DNA of 64,000 nucleotides from positions 62,001-126,000 of the IMG/VR virus record IMGVR_UViG_3300025405_000011; one strand, given 5' to 3'. Below, in pieces: positions 58,918-64,000 of this stretch. The notes under the pieces are model-generated. The model was not told the origin of the DNA. It saw only the letters and a list, made by a program, of their open reading frames with translations, and made no database searches. Within the stretch, counting starts at the first letter, position 1. The number at the start of each line of letters is the position of its first letter. This DNA is from a virus. A program made the position numbers and the translations under genes.

Positions 58918-60192
58918 TTATCTGGGGCCACCGTCACTAATTTTGGGAGTAGGAGTAACTTCGTCATTGGTCTCATAGTCTTTGAAGCCTTTAGGCGGAA
59001 CCATAGTTGGAGTAGGCTTGCCCTTAGCAACTTCATCACGTACAGTTTCGGCCAGACGCTTGCCACCTAGTTGGTGACTTGTATACTTCTCGTGTGGGTG
59101 ATCTCCAAAGTATTTGGGTCCGATCTCTCGAAGTATAGGGTCACTGCTATTGTGCATTTCAGCGTGAGCACTACGATCTGTTACTGTTCGTAGTCCCTCT
59201 TGACCTTCTCTTAATGCACAGTGTTGACATTGACAGAAATGAGGGTCAAAAGTGTCTAGTTCACTGGCTACATCACGGTCATGATAGTGCCAGGGTCTAA
59301 ACTGACTTCTAATGCCTTTGATTACAGTTTTAAGGTTGGTGTCCAATCTCCAGGGTTTATTGTCATCTAGTCCTTGCCAGCTCTCTACTCGAGAGACACT
59401 ACGACCGGTAGCGGGATCTGTTTGCATACTGCGATTGGCTATTCCGTGTACTTTGGCATGTACCGCTTCTCGAGCCTGGGAGAGACGTGAGTGTATATTG
59501 CCCACTCCACGAGTCAAGGCTGTTTGATGAGCTAGAGTTCTAAGAGCCACTGCTTTACCGAGCTGTGACATAGGATTACTTCCCTTTACTCCACGAGCGG
59601 TTTCTGTCGGATTACCGAGTTCGGTTCCGCCTTCTGGTTTGGAAAAAGGATTACTGAGTAGTTCGTGTAGACTAAAGTGATTGCGTCCACTGTACATACC
59701 GGGAGCTTCAAATCCACGAGTGCCACCGGGGGCTTGAAAACGAATGGAAGCATACTCGCTCAATCTCTTGCCAATGAGTCGTGGGTCGCATGTACGTCTA
59801 GTACCCGGCATCCATTCTCCGGTTTTGGGATGCTGTCTAAGTCCCAGTTTGCTTATGGCCTCTTCACTGGGCTCTTGTCCGGCTTCTGCAGCACTCTGTA
59901 GATAGTGTCTTCCAGCACGACGCACTTGCCAAGCGTTAAAGTTTTCCGGACGATCTCGCAATAGACGAAAGTCACTGTTGCCTTGTTGAGTATTGCCGCC
60001 TGCAACATTGGGACTCTCAATGCTCTTGCCCGTAGTCCAACGAGGAGCCTTGCGAACGCCCGTAGAGGCATCGTCAGTTTGTACACTCGGGGTCGATGTG
60101 GGTTCGGGCGCGGACTGTACCTCTTGCATCATCTGGCTCAGTGGCTTACCGCCGGGTCCTATGATCTCGCCGGCTATTCGACTATTAAACAT
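58918..60192 (-). CDS. Candidate minor virion protein, first gene of the minus-strand block
   Basis: I chose the ATG at 60192, preceded by CGGAGA. The 424-residue product begins MFNSRIAGEI, followed by a Ser/Thr/Pro/Gln-rich region, then a large basic region containing RPENFNAWQVRRAGRHYLQ, and a late CQCQHC motif. It carries the FNSR motif shared with three other genes in this block. As the first gene after the divergent region, it sets the direction of the whole late cluster. The function is unknown. Confidence 0.6.
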   Translation of the reverse strand: MFNSRIAGEIIGPGGKPLSQMMQEVQSAPEPTSTPSVQTDDASTGVRKAPRWTTGKSIESPNVAGGNTQQGNSDFRLLRDRPENFNAWQVRRAGRHYLQSAAEAGQEPSEEAISKLGLRQHPKTGEWMPGTRRTCDPRLIGKRLSEYASIRFQAPGGTRGFEAPGMYSGRNHFSLHELLSNPFSKPEGGTELGNPTETARGVKGSNPMSQLGKAVALRTLAHQTALTRGVGNIHSRLSQAREAVHAKVHGIANRSMQTDPATGRSVSRVESWQGLDDNKPWRLDTNLKTVIKGIRSQFRPWHYHDRDVASELDTFDPHFCQCQHCALREGQEGLRTVTDRSAHAEMHNSSDPILREIGPKYFGDHPHEKYTSHQLGGKRLAETVRDEVAKGKPTPTMVPPKGFKDYETNDEVTPTPKISDGGPR

Positions 60193-60655
60193 ACTGTCTC
60201 CGTTCTTGTTGTTCCGGTGCTGCATTAAAAAGGGGCCCCGCGCGTAGTTTCGGCATTTTTATTTTGCTTAGCTCGAGTCTTCCCCGAAAATCGGGAAAAC
60301 AGACGTGACCATGTACGGGGTCTGTAGGCCGCCTACTGCCGGCGGCGTGCGCTGTAAATACACACGTACAAGTCCCGTACATACTCGTGTAGTCTAGGGC
60401 CGAGAGTACATTAGAGACACCCCACGCAGGATTCCGAGATCCCGCTCGCACGTTTTTTTGAGACCCCGTGTCGTCCCTCTCGTGCCCACTGTATAGGTAC
60501 TACAAGTACCCGCCGCCCACATGAGACATGTAGAACCCGTTGTCCACGGAATTGGTGCTCCCGCTCGTGGTTTTAGAAAGCTTACATTGGCAGATACAAC
60601 TGTCGATTGGAGAGGTTATGAACTTCTCTCAGACATCCCATGAAAGGGGATAACA
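60193..60655. other. Divergent GC-richer intergenic region with nested inverted repeats
   Basis: No convincing gene is present. The GC content is visibly higher than on either side. ATGTACGGG (60311-60319) and CCCGTACAT (60374-60382) form a 9-bp inverted repeat that encloses a second, GCCGCC/GGCGGC (60328-60346). Smaller perfect hairpins occur at 60496-60510 (GGTACT/AGTACC, loop ACA) and 60519-60531 (ACATG/CATGT). A GAGAGGTT/AACTTCTC hairpin and ATCCC/GGGAT pair lie in the leader of the first plus-strand gene and could cover its ribosome binding site. Both gene blocks are probably transcribed from here, but no clear sigma-70 promoter stands out. An origin is also possible. Confidence 0.5.
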
Positions 60656-61030
60656 ATGAAGCGAGACATCAATACATCAGTGCAGTTGCGTGCTGGATCT
60701 TGTGGTATGGAGGTAGCAGAGCAACTAACTAAGGTTGATGCAGTACCATGTGTGGGCCTTGGTGCCTACTGGCTGGACTCCAGGACTCAGTTCCAGGACC
60801 ACGAGGTAGTCATTAGGGACATTGTAAGGTCACCCAAAGGCAAAGTCAACAACTATCTGTTGAGTTTCCGTGCAGTTGACCCCTACACCGCACAACCCGT
60901 TGGTGGCTGGATTGAGGCCAAGAGCAAGTACACTTGGAACCAACTCAACGGTCACTTTTACACCATGGCCTCGTTTGTGGCCTTGGTTGAACGCATCAAT
61001 GAACGGACAGTTGAAAACTTGATAAAGTGA
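60656..61030 (+). CDS. Small protein, unknown, first plus-strand gene
   Basis: The 124-residue protein has a ribosome binding site (AAAGGGGATAAC) before its ATG. It starts MKRDINTSVQLRAGSCG and contains the aromatic segment WNQLNGHFYTMASFVALVERIN near its end. Codon use is more mixed than in the minus-strand block. The stop is followed 20 bases later by a 12-bp hairpin. No family is recognised; it is probably an early or regulatory protein. Confidence 0.6.
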   Translation: MKRDINTSVQLRAGSCGMEVAEQLTKVDAVPCVGLGAYWLDSRTQFQDHEVVIRDIVRSPKGKVNNYLLSFRAVDPYTAQPVGGWIEAKSKYTWNQLNGHFYTMASFVALVERINERTVENLIK

Positions 61031-61049
61031 TCAACTAGGCAATTGGTCG

Positions 61050-61146
61050 GGGTGGTGGTTGTTCGCGCAACCATCATCCACTATGTTCTGGTACAAAGCC
61101 AGGCAGAAGGTAGCCCATGCCTCCCATGGGCACAACAACAAGGGAG
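61050..61146 (+). promoter_or_regulatory. Structured intergenic leader, copy 1
   Basis: Elements in order: hairpin H1 (61050-61061 with 61068-61079, 12 bp with two G-U pairs, loop TTCGCG), a CACTATG segment, hairpin H2 (CTGG 61088-61091 with CCAG 61099-61102), CAGAAGGT, hairpin H3 (GCCCATG 61113-61119 with CATGGGC 61125-61131, loop CCTCC) and AACAACAAGGGAG (61134-61146), which contains the ribosome binding site of the next gene. The same order occurs at 63864-63953. Confidence 0.7.
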
Positions 61147-61152
61147 ATAACC

Positions 61153-61704
61153 GTGTCAATTGCTATTGATGGCGTTATTTACAAGGCAGCTGGAAGCCAG
61201 ACGATTGCTCGTCAGGCCAACCAGAAGGGCATCAACTTGACCGCTGAGTTGGAGACAGCCACAGTCAGTAACCTGGTAACAGGTGAACTGTACTATTGGT
61301 TTGACTACAGCACACAGCGTGAGTTGAAGGCGCTTCAGTCAGACGAGACATACACTGATGGTGGTGTCTCTGTCCCTGAAGTATTCCAGTTGGCAGGCCA
61401 GCCGGCTGCACGCAAGAAGAGCATCATTGTGCCTCTTAACTTTGCACGTGTCAATGTTGCAGATGGATCACTAACATGGTTCACCAATGACGATGGCACA
61501 CTCAAGGTGTACGAGCGCACAGTGAAGCTCATTGCTGACCGTGCACGTGATTACTTCCGGAGCATTGCTGTTCTGCAGCGTGTGCTTGACACGGAAGTGG
61601 TGGACTCTGACAGTGGTTTGTCAGGTACATATGTCATGTTCGACACTGCCATGGGTACAGTGGGATCAATCACTGACGCTGAAGCAGAAGTCAGCACAAA
61701 GTAG
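61153..61704 (+). CDS. Uncharacterised phage protein with GTG start
   Basis: I chose the GTG at 61153, seven bases after AGGGAG; an ATG at 61117 lies inside the H3 hairpin of the leader and lacks a ribosome binding site. The 183-residue product has a mixed alpha-beta look with SQTIARQANQKGINLTAELETA, GELYYWFDYSTQRE and a long C-terminal helix region (VKLIADRARDYFRSIAVLQRVL). Its stop is followed directly by a 12-bp hairpin. Function unknown. Confidence 0.65.
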   Translation: MSIAIDGVIYKAAGSQTIARQANQKGINLTAELETATVSNLVTGELYYWFDYSTQRELKALQSDETYTDGGVSVPEVFQLAGQPAARKKSIIVPLNFARVNVADGSLTWFTNDDGTLKVYERTVKLIADRARDYFRSIAVLQRVLDTEVVDSDSGLSGTYVMFDTAMGTVGSITDAEAEVSTK

Positions 61705-62069
61705 TACAAAGCCATGGGACGTTGTCATGACGTCTCATGGCCCTGGGACAGTGTGTGTGTTGCGGTGTGTTCGACACGCGGGCACATGTGTCATATTGTA
61801 TGGAGACAATGGTAAGCATTGCACTATACAAGCGTACATGTATTCATATGGACACTGTACAAACAGCAACCGTACACTGTACAGACAACAACCGTACAGA
61901 CACACGTGTATCCATGGTACAATATTCCAATGTGGCCATGTGTATGCGACACCATGATCAGTGGGTTCACTTCACCCTTTCGTGAGCTCATTCATCCGTT
62001 TCGCATACACATGAGCATGCTGGGAAGCATCTGTTTGCAGTACAATCAAACAATAACAAGGGAGCAAAT
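61705..62069 (+). other. Gene-free region: post-stop hairpin, tandem repeats and leader of the next gene
   Basis: No coding frame is convincing. A 12-bp hairpin (GCCATGGGACGT 61711-61722 with ACGTCTCATGGC 61730-61741) follows the preceding stop. The middle contains many GTAC/TGTACA motifs and a 22-bp tandem repeat (61854-61897). The right end has ATGCT-GGGA-AGCAT (62017-62030), TGTTTG/CAAACA (62032-62052) and AATAACAAGGGAG (62052-62064) before the ATG at 62070. A weak TTGCAC/TATTCA promoter-like pair lies about 61829-61856. Confidence 0.5.
61854..61897. repeat. Tandem 22-bp direct repeat (two copies)
   Basis: The two units begin ACTGTAC and end CAACCGTAC, and match at 20 of 22 positions (61854-61875 and 61876-61897). 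Partial TGTAC/GTACA echoes lie on either side. With only two full units and no spacers it is not a CRISPR array. Operator or iteron function is possible. Confidence 0.65.
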
Positions 62070-62453
62070 ATGATACAAACATTGGTCAAGAGCCATTGTC
62101 AACATTGGACATGTGGTGGGCTAGAAGATGGGAATCCATTCCATTCACTCACTGCAGAACGTCATGTACATTTGTATCTCAATGCTGAGGTAGATGCCAT
62201 GTTTGGTCTCTACACAGTGGAGAGTGGTACATTTGGCAATGAGTCTCAACCATGGAACATAAGCAATGGGATATTTGTGCCCTCCATAGTTCAGGCCCAG
62301 AACTTGTTCTTTTCAGCGGTCAAGATGTTGAGTGACAGCCGCAAGAGCAGTGTCAATGTCCATAACTTGGAGTGGTGCAAGACCCAAGAATATTTACAGT
62401 TGCTGAATGCAACCATTGATTTACAGATGGCCATTCAAGCGTACAGACTGTAG
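62070..62453 (+). CDS. Small protein, unknown
   Basis: The 127-residue protein has a strong ribosome binding site (AACAAGGGAGCAAAT). It starts MIQTLVKSHCQHWTCGGLEDG and has a His-Leu-Tyr segment, then helical sequence (AQNLFFSAVKMLSDSRK, LQLLNATIDLQMAIQAYR). Three cysteines are scattered and do not form a zinc pattern. It is followed six bases later by the next gene, so the two are probably co-translated. Confidence 0.6.
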   Translation: MIQTLVKSHCQHWTCGGLEDGNPFHSLTAERHVHLYLNAEVDAMFGLYTVESGTFGNESQPWNISNGIFVPSIVQAQNLFFSAVKMLSDSRKSSVNVHNLEWCKTQEYLQLLNATIDLQMAIQAYRL

Positions 62454-62459
62454 GTCAAT

Positions 62460-62630
62460 ATGTTTACATGGATCAATAAAAAGATAACATTGCGCCGCAT
62501 TAGTATGGTGGATGAAATCGAAGAACAAATCATTCTCAACTTGGGACGCAATGTTAAGATTGCTGAGCTCAAGCGTATAAATGATGCCTTTGAGCTGATC
62601 AGACAGGAACTATTGTTCTCGATCAGTTGA
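62460..62630 (+). CDS. Small helical protein of 56 residues, unknown
   Basis: An ATG at 62460 opens a 56-residue frame (MFTWINKKITLRRISMVDE ... ELIRQELLFSIS). It is strongly helical with a heptad-like pattern of hydrophobic residues (VDEIEEQIILNLGRNVKI), so a small coiled-coil dimer is likely. It begins only 6 bases after the upstream stop and has a weak GGTCA site, consistent with translational coupling. A hairpin follows four bases after its stop. Confidence 0.55.
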   Translation: MFTWINKKITLRRISMVDEIEEQIILNLGRNVKIAELKRINDAFELIRQELLFSIS

Positions 62631-62633
62631 AAG

Positions 62634-62713
62634 ATGCAACCATTGAAGGTTGCATGGGATACATATGTAATTGATCTAATCAATGTCCCCCCAGGACACA
62701 TATGTATCCCATG
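62634..62713 (+). promoter_or_regulatory. Long nested hairpin in the leader of the Rpf-like gene
   Basis: A perfect 16-bp stem (62653-62668 with 62698-62713) closes a 29-base loop that itself contains a 6-bp hairpin (ATTGAT 62670-62675 with ATCAAT 62679-62684). A separate 8-bp hairpin (ATGCAACC 62634-62641 with GGTTGCAT 62648-62655) shares three bases with the large stem, so the two compete at their edge. GGGAT/ATCCC pairing continues downstream. The ribosome binding site (GAAGGAGCACC) lies about 30 bases after the stem. Confidence 0.7.
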
Positions 62714-62751
62714 GGATCTTCAAAAATCCCAAACAAACAAGAAGGAGCACC

Positions 62752-63285
62752 ATGGATGCACTGCGAAAAATGTGTATTTGTGCTCTATTGACAATTGGTA
62801 TACTAGTTCCATCTGTTGCGGGAGCAACTGACAAATGGAAAGTTCAAAATGGACATGTATATCAAGTTCAGACAGTGACTAAGTCCAACTTACACTGGTA
62901 TAGTAACATTATGCCAACAGTGGTTAAGAATGAATCACATGCTCTGATGCAATGGAACACAACTAGCACAGATGTAACAGCCACGTGGCCTGATGCAACT
63001 GACCCTACAAGAAAGTTACCAATAAAAGCACAAGTAACATTTGCTTGTATTAGGTATCATGAAAGTAGAAATCATCTGACCAGTGTTGAGATACACTCTT
63101 ATGCCGGTGGATGGTATCAGTTTATTCCATATATATGGAATTTTGCAAGAGGACACATACCTGGGCTACCAGCAAAACCCCAAATGGCTACAGCACATCA
63201 ACAATCTGCTGTGGCTGTCTGGTATTACCAACGCAATCATGGTTTTTACCCAGAATGGGGTGGAGACATGAAAGTTTGTGGCTAA
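62752..63285 (+). CDS. Secreted Rpf/transglycosylase-like protein
   Basis: I chose the ATG at 62752, with AAGGAG close upstream. The 177-residue product starts with a signal peptide (MDALRKMCICALLTIGILVPSVAGA). The C-terminal 80 residues resemble the lysozyme-like fold of Rpf proteins: CIRYHESRNHL with catalytic Glu104, SYAGGWYQFIPYIWNFARG and a final CG, with Cys99 and Cys176 in position for a disulphide. Rpf-like enzymes cleave peptidoglycan glycan strands and are typical of actinobacteria. The 70-residue middle has no known match. Confidence 0.75.
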   Translation: MDALRKMCICALLTIGILVPSVAGATDKWKVQNGHVYQVQTVTKSNLHWYSNIMPTVVKNESHALMQWNTTSTDVTATWPDATDPTRKLPIKAQVTFACIRYHESRNHLTSVEIHSYAGGWYQFIPYIWNFARGHIPGLPAKPQMATAHQQSAVAVWYYQRNHGFYPEWGGDMKVCG

Positions 63286-63288
63286 TGG

Positions 63289-63347
63289 AGGTGGTATGGA
63301 GTCAAATCCATACCATCTACTATGCAGAAATGCATAATAACAAGGAG
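63289..63347 (+). promoter_or_regulatory. Structured intergenic leader, copy 2 (short form)
   Basis: H1 is a 12-bp hairpin (AGGTGGTATGGA 63289-63300 with TCCATACCATCT 63307-63318, one G-U pair, loop GTCAAA). H2 is TATGCA-GAAA-TGCATA (63321-63336) with a GNRA-type loop. AATAACAAGGAG (63336-63347) follows, with the ribosome binding site of the next gene. The H3 hairpin of the other copies is missing. Confidence 0.7.
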
Positions 63348-63352
63348 AATGT

Positions 63353-63859
63353 ATGAGTGACATGAATACACTAACCTGGTTTAGTGAGAGATGGTATGGT
63401 GAACCCAAATACAGATCTACAAGGTATACAAATGCCAAAGTGGATCTTGGTTTTACCATACAAGAAGATGTCAAGGGTGATGTCTTTTTACAAATTAGAT
63501 CAGTGAGGACAGGTAAAAAGAATGCTGACTGGGAAGTTGGTATTTTTAAATGTCTCAATGAAACTATGTCTTCTGCTAAAAAAGCCATTAAAAAAGCATG
63601 GGTGACTATGCAGAATTCTAGTGAAGATGAGATGAAATCATTCAATACCTTTTGGGATACATTGGTATCATATGGGTGGCTTCCAGCAATGGAGATGCCT
63701 TGCCATCATGGTATGATGTCAGTTTGTTTTTGTGGTAGAAAGGCAATTGCTTCATGGGCCACTACTCGTAGTACAATTCATCATACTACATTGAAGACAG
63801 TGTTGGAAGTTGAAGAAGAAAACAAGCTTGAACCATTGATCTTTGCATGGCCTGAGTGA
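63353..63859 (+). CDS. Small protein with Cys/His cluster, unknown
   Basis: The 168-residue protein has a ribosome binding site (AAGGAGAATGT) before its ATG. It contains TWFSERWYGEPKYRSTRYTNAK near the start, a helical middle and a late Cys/His set, CHHGMMSVCFCGRKAIASW, that may bind metal. C-terminal sequence is helical and acidic. No family is recognised. The stop is followed by the third structured leader. Confidence 0.6.
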   Translation: MSDMNTLTWFSERWYGEPKYRSTRYTNAKVDLGFTIQEDVKGDVFLQIRSVRTGKKNADWEVGIFKCLNETMSSAKKAIKKAWVTMQNSSEDEMKSFNTFWDTLVSYGWLPAMEMPCHHGMMSVCFCGRKAIASWATTRSTIHHTTLKTVLEVEEENKLEPLIFAWPE

Positions 63860-63863
63860 TAAA

Positions 63864-63953
63864 GGATGGTATGGAGTCAAATTCATACCATCCACTATGT
63901 ACTTGACAGTACAGAAGGTGATCATTGCCTACCAATGATAAATAACAAGGGAG
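63864..63953 (+). promoter_or_regulatory. Structured intergenic leader, copy 3
   Basis: H1: GGATGGTATGGA (63864-63875) with TTCATACCATCC (63882-63893), 12 bp with one G-U pair, loop GTCAAA as in copy 2. H2: TGTACT/AGTACA (63898-63913, loop TGAC). CAGAAGGT, then H3: ATCATTG (63921-63927) with CAATGAT (63933-63939), loop CCTAC. AATAACAAGGGAG (63941-63953) contains the ribosome binding site. Order and spacing match copy 1 although most stem bases differ. Confidence 0.75.
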
Positions 63954-63959
63954 ATTAGT

Positions 63960-64000
63960 GTGAAAACTAACACTTCAATCCAATCAGCAACCGAACAGAT
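63960..64000 (+). CDS. Start of a plus-strand gene, cut by the window edge
   Basis: A GTG at 63960 (in-frame VKTNTSIQSATEQ) lies seven bases after AGGGAG of the third structured leader, matching the arrangement of the GTG-started gene at 61153. Only 13 codons are visible, so no function can be assigned. Confidence 0.5.
   Translation, partial: MKTNTSIQSATEQ

Follow-up and report, generated by a model that had tools for sequence, protein, structure and literature searches.

Repeated RNA elements, each built around a 12-base-pair (bp) hairpin that we call H1, lie between the genes of an operon at the right end of a 64,000-nucleotide (nt) stretch of viral DNA (bases 62001-126000 of the 132,618-base contig IMGVR_UViG_3300025405_000011; hereafter the window). 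Leftward genes extend up to window position 60225, beyond which the rightward operon runs to the end of the contig. We propose that the elements probably punctuate a long early transcript, marking between its genes the places at which the RNA is processed. They form paired stems on one strand, mostly just past stop codons, they have tRNA-like counterparts in related phages, and in one relative a hammerhead ribozyme stands at the same site; from the structure and from this replacement we infer that the transcript may be cut at the elements.

In the proposed layout, H1 would stand just past a stop codon and a purine-C would follow it; next would come, in most cases, a small hairpin H2, in some copies a third hairpin, H3, and finally the ribosome-binding site of the next gene. 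The parts in the window, and the further hairpins to its right, are as follows.

61050-61079, plus strand: H1 of copy 1, 12-bp hairpin with loop TTCGCG, then ACTATG
61088-61102, plus strand: H2 of copy 1 (CTGG..CCAG)
61104-61108, plus strand: CAGAA of copy 1, 3' of H2
61113-61131, plus strand: H3 of copy 1, 7-bp hairpin GCCCATG-CCTCC-CATGGGC
61140-61146, plus strand: Shine-Dalgarno sequence AAGGGAG, before the GTG start at 61153
61711-61741, plus strand: fourth 12-bp hairpin, loop TGTCATG, 6 nt past the stop codon of the gene whose end is at 61704
63289-63318, plus strand: H1 of copy 2, 12-bp hairpin with loop GTCAAA, 3 nt past the stop at 63283-63285, then ACTATG
63321-63336, plus strand: H2 of copy 2, TATGCA-GAAA-TGCATA, with a GNRA tetraloop and containing CAGAA
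63342-63347, plus strand: Shine-Dalgarno sequence AAGGAG, before the ATG at 63353
63864-63893, plus strand: H1 of copy 3, 12-bp hairpin with loop GTCAAA, 4 nt past the stop at 63857-63859, then ACTATG
63898-63913, plus strand: H2 of copy 3, TGTAC-TTGACA-GTACA
63912-63916, plus strand: CAGAA of copy 3
63921-63939, plus strand: H3 of copy 3, 7-bp hairpin ATCATTG-CCTAC-CAATGAT
63947-63953, plus strand: Shine-Dalgarno sequence AAGGGAG, before the GTG at 63960
Contig 126410, 128799, 129143, 129702 and 131022, same operon: five more perfect 12-bp hairpins right of the window
Contig near 130398, 131456 and 132500, same operon beyond the window: imperfect hairpins

A preliminary description had listed three copies with one common order of parts. 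All three are real, each with a 12-bp H1 followed directly by ACTATG, but the count was too low, given the hairpin at 61711-61741 and the five perfect ones to the right, and the order is not the same throughout, CAGAA lying within H2 rather than after it in copy 2. It had also been correctly noted that copies 2 and 3 share the loop GTCAAA (TTCGCG in copy 1), that H3 is present only in some copies (1 and 3), and that AAGG(G)AG precedes the starts, where this Shine-Dalgarno-like sequence sits 5-6 nt 5' of the start codon in all three copies.

Perfect 12-bp hairpins with loops of 6-7 nt number 12 on the plus strand of the operon (10 kb), nine of them intergenic, and 0 on its minus strand, compared with a mean of 0.075 and a maximum of 1 in shuffled operon sequence. 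The other 122.7 kb of the contig hold five, both strands taken together (245 kb of strand; the contig was scanned by stretches, with bases 60001-62000 outside the script scan). Since a G-T pair becomes A-C on the opposite strand, the strand bias points to the RNA of the transcribed strand. The intergenic perfect hairpins of the operon are either 7-9 bp or 12-14 bp long, with none at 10-11 bp, and most of those of 13-14 bp consist of 12 bp plus extra pairs within the loop; the loops themselves (GTCAAA, TTCGCG, GTCATG, TTCATTG) are mostly NTCA-like.

A gap-free alignment can be made of seven H1 copies whose loops have 6 nt (84 cells), and 100% of its cells are paired as against 57.9% in shuffles, a percentage that is biased because the copies are paralogues chosen by pairing. 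That choice does not explain the two-sided variation: both partners change at 12 of the 12 pairs (36 such cells, 10.6 in shuffles), the covariation score of 1.34 (0.36 in shuffles) was matched by 0 of 500 shuffles, and pairing drops to 38-46% when the partners are shifted by 1-3 columns. The earlier claim of compensatory change under selection for RNA structure is thereby supported. A covariance model built from the copies, a search that had been suggested as a check, re-finds the copies in this operon and elsewhere matches one site in two relatives (L093:7817 and L114:10257, E 0.0013), just 3' of the stop of the gene after the AAA-ATPase, a place at which this genome too has one of its hairpins.

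Directly 3' of the H1 hairpins stands ACTATG, ACGATG, GCTC, CCTATG or CCTGGG, and a classification as intrinsic terminators, which calls for a GC-rich hairpin and a U tract, is not supported for this operon. It is rather improbable, in our judgment, that H1 is instead a terminator of the kind claimed for some actinobacteria, which would need no U tract, with a promoter of its own downstream for each gene. The position of H1 directly 3' of stop codons would suit such an arrangement, as would the Actinomycetia lake phage DSL-LC01 (L123), whose similar AAA/VWA-type operon has a hairpin and a promoter-like motif, TAAAG..GTTATAAT, ahead of its small genes (22 matches). However, with the U tract missing, a loose terminator pattern fits one of nine hairpins (the first copy), promoter-like sites show no enrichment in this operon (30 against 25 +/- 5), the motif TTATAAT occurs 0 times in it, and the T-loops, reduced tRNAs and hammerheads found at such sites, described below, would be left unexplained. 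DSL-LC01 has three real tRNAs and lacks elements of the kind described here; the present operon is unenriched in promoter-like sites, and the comparison suggests two solutions for expressing many small genes.

Relatives were collected through the AAA-ATPase gene, the gene starting at window 62752 and the portal gene (76 loci from the portal search by itself), and the VWA-like protein and a 143-amino-acid protein, used as queries, found zero closer relatives. Many of the contigs are incomplete, the script's gene calls are simple, and the short-calibrated models give only rough E-values. By eye, the gene starting at 62752 is lysozyme-like, and a family search with it gave no match; the VWA-like gene is named from a MIDAS-like motif and the DSL-LC01 annotation, its protein having no convincing Pfam match, TROVE included. 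The rightward operons of the relatives carry tRNA-like structures, mostly just past stop codons and on the plus strand only, in which a 7-bp acceptor stem and a 5-bp T stem with a canonical TTCRANY-type T-loop are present and 10-26 nt stand in place of the D and anticodon arms. Examples are at the following positions.

L093, 2857, 4817, 5402, 11807 and 12288, plus strand: tRNA-like structures
L110, 13861, 15164 and 15827, plus strand: tRNA-like structures
L113, 14075, 14606, 15924 and 16588, plus strand: tRNA-like structures
L114, 7866, 14271 and 15142, plus strand: tRNA-like structures
L016, 8769 and 9448, plus strand: tRNA-like structures

In 162 kb of relatives, structures with a TTCRA T-loop and an insert of at most 20 nt occur 21 times on the plus strand and 0 times on the minus strand, with 0.35 in shuffles. 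The acceptor/T helices of the tRNA-like structures are 97.8% paired, change on both sides at 10 of 12 pairs and have a covariation score matched by 0 of 500 shuffles. A covariance model built from 15 of the structures (R1) matches elements outside its training set, for example L111:7636 (E 7e-11), and gives zero significant matches in unrelated phage loci, which make up the majority of the 1.16 Mb searched; in whole records, every match below E 0.01 lies at the early-operon end and on one strand. Matches to the Rfam family 'Plastid-ycf2' on the opposite strand were discarded as mirror images of the tRNA-like elements.

The 12 bp of H1 in the nine intergenic copies of this genome (G000) correspond in length to 7 bp of acceptor stem plus 5 bp of T stem, which in the relatives are split by the insert. 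The D arm and the anticodon arm (7-nt loop, U33), cut down to those 10-26 nt in most relatives, are absent in the window copies. Two sites make the comparison direct. Before the AAA gene, a near-full tRNA-like form is present in L019, L095/L113, L096/L109, L110 and L111 (RF00005, 56-62 bits; that of L109 from the descriptor and ARAGORN only), and reduced forms are present in L016/L018 (57 nt), L093 (44 nt) and L114 (41 nt), whereas this genome has a 30-nt minihelix. The near-full forms are probably not decoding tRNAs, judging from their sequences, because their anticodon loops have 4-6 nt, or 7 nt and no U33. In this genome the GTCAAA minihelix of copy 2 follows the gene starting at 62752, and at that site L093 has a tRNA-like form with an 11-nt insert.

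At the first of these sites, a type II hammerhead (49.0 bits) lies 11 bases 5' of the AAA start in G020; the AAA proteins of G020 and of this genome are 47% identical. A hammerhead-like sequence, recognized by eye, also follows the VWA-like gene of G020, where this genome has a minihelix. Hammerheads are RNA-cutting ribozymes, and as they share an intergenic site with the present elements, whose shape fits RNase P recognition, the elements plausibly mark an RNA cut. Three hammerheads were found in G020 by Rfam, on the operon strand, and one more by pattern. In G025, seven Rfam hammerhead matches fall within 10.5 kb, all on the operon strand, and a pattern search raises the total to about a dozen; seven of them start within the stop codon of the preceding gene (uAG UCGAAAC).

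L204 (contig IMGVR_UViG_3300006104_000014), 54000-72000: array of hammerheads in a phage operon, about a dozen in number, seven with their start inside the stop codon of the gene before

RF02276 also matches L095/L113, at 40 bits, a value that exceeds the gathering score, as well as L110, L114 and others; it has zero matches in this genome, where the type II hammerhead (CUGANGA / GAAA core, three stems) was sought and an Rfam scan of the operon gave chance matches only. Type II hammerheads, hammerheads in phage intergenic regions, and the pseudoknot between loop I and the 3' tail of this class are already known (PMC3088659). The relatives share the intergenic placement and differ in that up to about a dozen hammerheads form an array in one operon, several overlapping the stop codon; we found no description of such arrays in the open-licence literature.

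We hypothesize that H1 would be a minimal tRNA-like structure, in which a 7-bp acceptor stem and a 5-bp T stem stack into a 12-bp helix closed by a T-loop-like loop. Host RNase P would cut at the 5' edge of the acceptor stem, thereby freeing the upstream message, which would end a few bases beyond its stop codon, and leaving the downstream message with a folded, protected 5' end; in the main sub-variant, RNase Z would cut at the 3' side. The hammerheads of the relatives would cut themselves. The predicted shape of an RNase P substrate, a 12-bp acceptor/T helix with a single-stranded 5' leader, is present, and the RNA of this enzyme is known to cut hairpins of acceptor stem, T stem and T-loop (7+5 bp) at the canonical site (PMC11143913). 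Those model hairpins are like the copies here in having a 7+5-bp helix closed by a T-loop, but they are synthetic, whereas the natural copies lack CCA and have variant loops in this genome. Among mRNAs, that of T4 gene 32 was the earliest to be reported as an RNase P substrate (PMC11143913).

Several observations weigh against this hypothesis. The window loops GTCAAA and TTCGCG (6 nt) and TGTCATG differ from the canonical 7-nt TTCRANY loop seen in L093, L110, L113, L114 and L016, and R1 does not match the minihelices of the window. Therefore, the case for a tRNA ancestry of the window hairpins relies on their site, length and tail and on a resemblance of the loops, and the proposal is weakest where it requires that minihelices with non-canonical loops of 6 nt would still be RNase P substrates. 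As for the 3' RCC(A) contact of RNase P, 36 of 41 elements have a purine at position 73 and 39 of 41 have C74, but only 4 of 41 have C75; with C75 and CCA absent, C74 may be merely a linker before H2. After the VWA-like gene, other relatives have hairpins of about 11-14 bp (by eye) without T-loops, and a minihelix or tRNA-like structure occupies 7 of 12 intergenic gaps here (by descriptor) and 0-5 of 5-23 in relatives. Lastly, an independent origin of this genome's hairpins is possible, since in the AAA tree (which does not contain G020) this genome sits on a long branch outside the clade with canonical forms; the reduction may have taken place once or several times. A minihelix model (R2) found almost nothing in 32 further records, many of which perhaps do not reach the operon, and the exact form of this genome is therefore not widespread in those records.

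Some of the same observations would suit an explanation that we regard as unlikely, namely that H1 serves as a cleavage site of the RNase III type or stabilises a 3' end and that its resemblance to a tRNA minihelix is incidental here: the hairpin comes right after the stop, the loops are unlike canonical T-loops, and the relatives' hairpins that follow the VWA-like gene carry loops of unrelated sequence. The strict length of 12 bp and the 6-7 nt, mostly NTCA-like loops argue against it, as do the canonical tRNA-like forms at the two corresponding sites in relatives. There is very little probability, in turn, that the elements are decaying tRNA genes or recombination sites, that is, relics of phage tRNAs retained as exchange points between gene cassettes. 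Near-full tRNA-like forms do exist, and L114 (7859-8040) lacks one gene and one tRNA-like element that are found before AAA in L093 (4811-5545), as if two elements had recombined; relics, however, would lose the two-sided paired stems, the single strand and the constant place after stop codons.

Translational control of the downstream gene, either by pairing of the H1 tail (GCTCC..) with the Shine-Dalgarno sequence or by a protein binding H1/H2, appears to us quite improbable. In two leaders right of the window, predicted folds pair a GCUC(CC) tail with the Shine-Dalgarno region, and H2 loops are GNRA or AAGTW in 16 of 44 cases (1.5% background), but the ACTATG class, which includes all three copies first noted, has no anti-Shine-Dalgarno tail, and T-loop and hammerheads would go unexplained.

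Among known systems, the closest likeness to RNA-processing punctuation of this kind is in organelles. tRNA punctuation is textbook for mitochondria, where tRNAs between genes mark the cuts of a polycistronic transcript. Plant mitochondria also have t-elements, tRNA-like structures that likewise mark such cuts and stand at mRNA ends mapped by experiment (PMC8003010). Here, too, tRNA-like structures lie between genes, the fold being found and the cleavage predicted from sequence; unlike those systems, the elements belong to a DNA phage, are reduced to a 30-nt acceptor/T minihelix and have a hammerhead at the same site in one relative. No description of tRNA punctuation or tRNA-like processing elements in phages was found in the open-licence literature.

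The nearest cultivated phages by portal protein are the Cluster C mycobacteriophages (Ceeclamvirinae, Bxz1-like), at 40% identity, which makes an actinobacterial host likely. The preliminary description had been reminded of the start-associated sequences (SAS) of actinophages, a likeness that does not hold. The elements share with the SAS/ESAS of Cluster K mycobacteriophages that they are repeated just 5' of starts and contain inverted repeats, and membership was rejected: the 13-bp SAS GGGATAGGAGCCC is at chance level (6 matches with at most 3 mismatches, 8.8 expected). ESAS repeats conserve the sequence itself (PMC3203893), whereas the elements here conserve pairing only and their stems vary freely. 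Overall, the interpretation first given is partly supported; the tRNA-like counterparts in relatives and the hammerhead replacement lay beyond its view. Ava3 (Ceeclamvirinae, Bxz1-like) has large arrays of real tRNAs and, unlike this genome, no minihelix array. Two unannotated reduced tRNA-like elements (inserts of 23 and 12 nt) stand in the tRNA cluster of this Mycobacterium phage, at L126:43420 and L126:47645. A Ro/Y-RNA link, prompted by the Ro-like gene of Ava3, was dropped in view of the missing Pfam match of the VWA-like protein and of early-operon Rfam scans that reported no Y-RNA family.

Other structured sequences accompany the elements. One, whose architecture differs from that of the H1-type element, is in the window.

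62634-62730, plus strand: strongly folded, larger leader of the gene that starts at 62752, a hairpin and a long branched stem with two small hairpins (z -5.4)

Noncoding stretches of about 600-1000 nt lie 3' of the VWA-like gene at L009:7294-7892 (contig 128793-129391), L018:8200-8850, L093:8657-9228 and L019:3300-4290; they hold the repeated CTCATxATGAGGGGAAGCTCATG and further 12-bp hairpins, have zero Rfam match and are possibly a large structured RNA. Likely H-type pseudoknots stand right before starts (a stem, loop cTGGGTA, then aaacTRCCCA), with changes that match between the copies, at L009 ~7846 and ~10015; L018 ~2310, ~8780 and ~10310; L093 ~9200; and L096 ~17590. A second pseudoknot-like leader, GGTATGGGTTCCACC .. 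ACGGGCCCAC, in which changes preserve pairing, occurs at L018 ~4580, L019 ~6860, L095 ~10570, L096 ~10540 and L098 ~6300. Intergenic gaps of L096 have several small pre-start hairpins in which an AAGTA pentaloop is constant and the stems vary.

Taken together, the chances seem to us evenly balanced that this is a family of uncultivated phages with interchangeable RNA-cutting modules in its early operon, tRNA-like RNase P targets (shrunk to 30-nt minihelices in this genome) and, in other members, hammerheads, by which the transcript would be cut gene by gene in the manner of mitochondria. tRNA finders list some of the elements as phage tRNA genes, although decoding is probably impossible for them. 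If the proposal is true, one corresponding site would display a natural series from a near-complete tRNA to a minimal minihelix, the elements would be natural counterparts of the hairpin substrates used in RNase P studies, a self-cutting ribozyme would replace an enzyme-made cut, and the extent to which phage mRNA is matured by RNase P would become testable.

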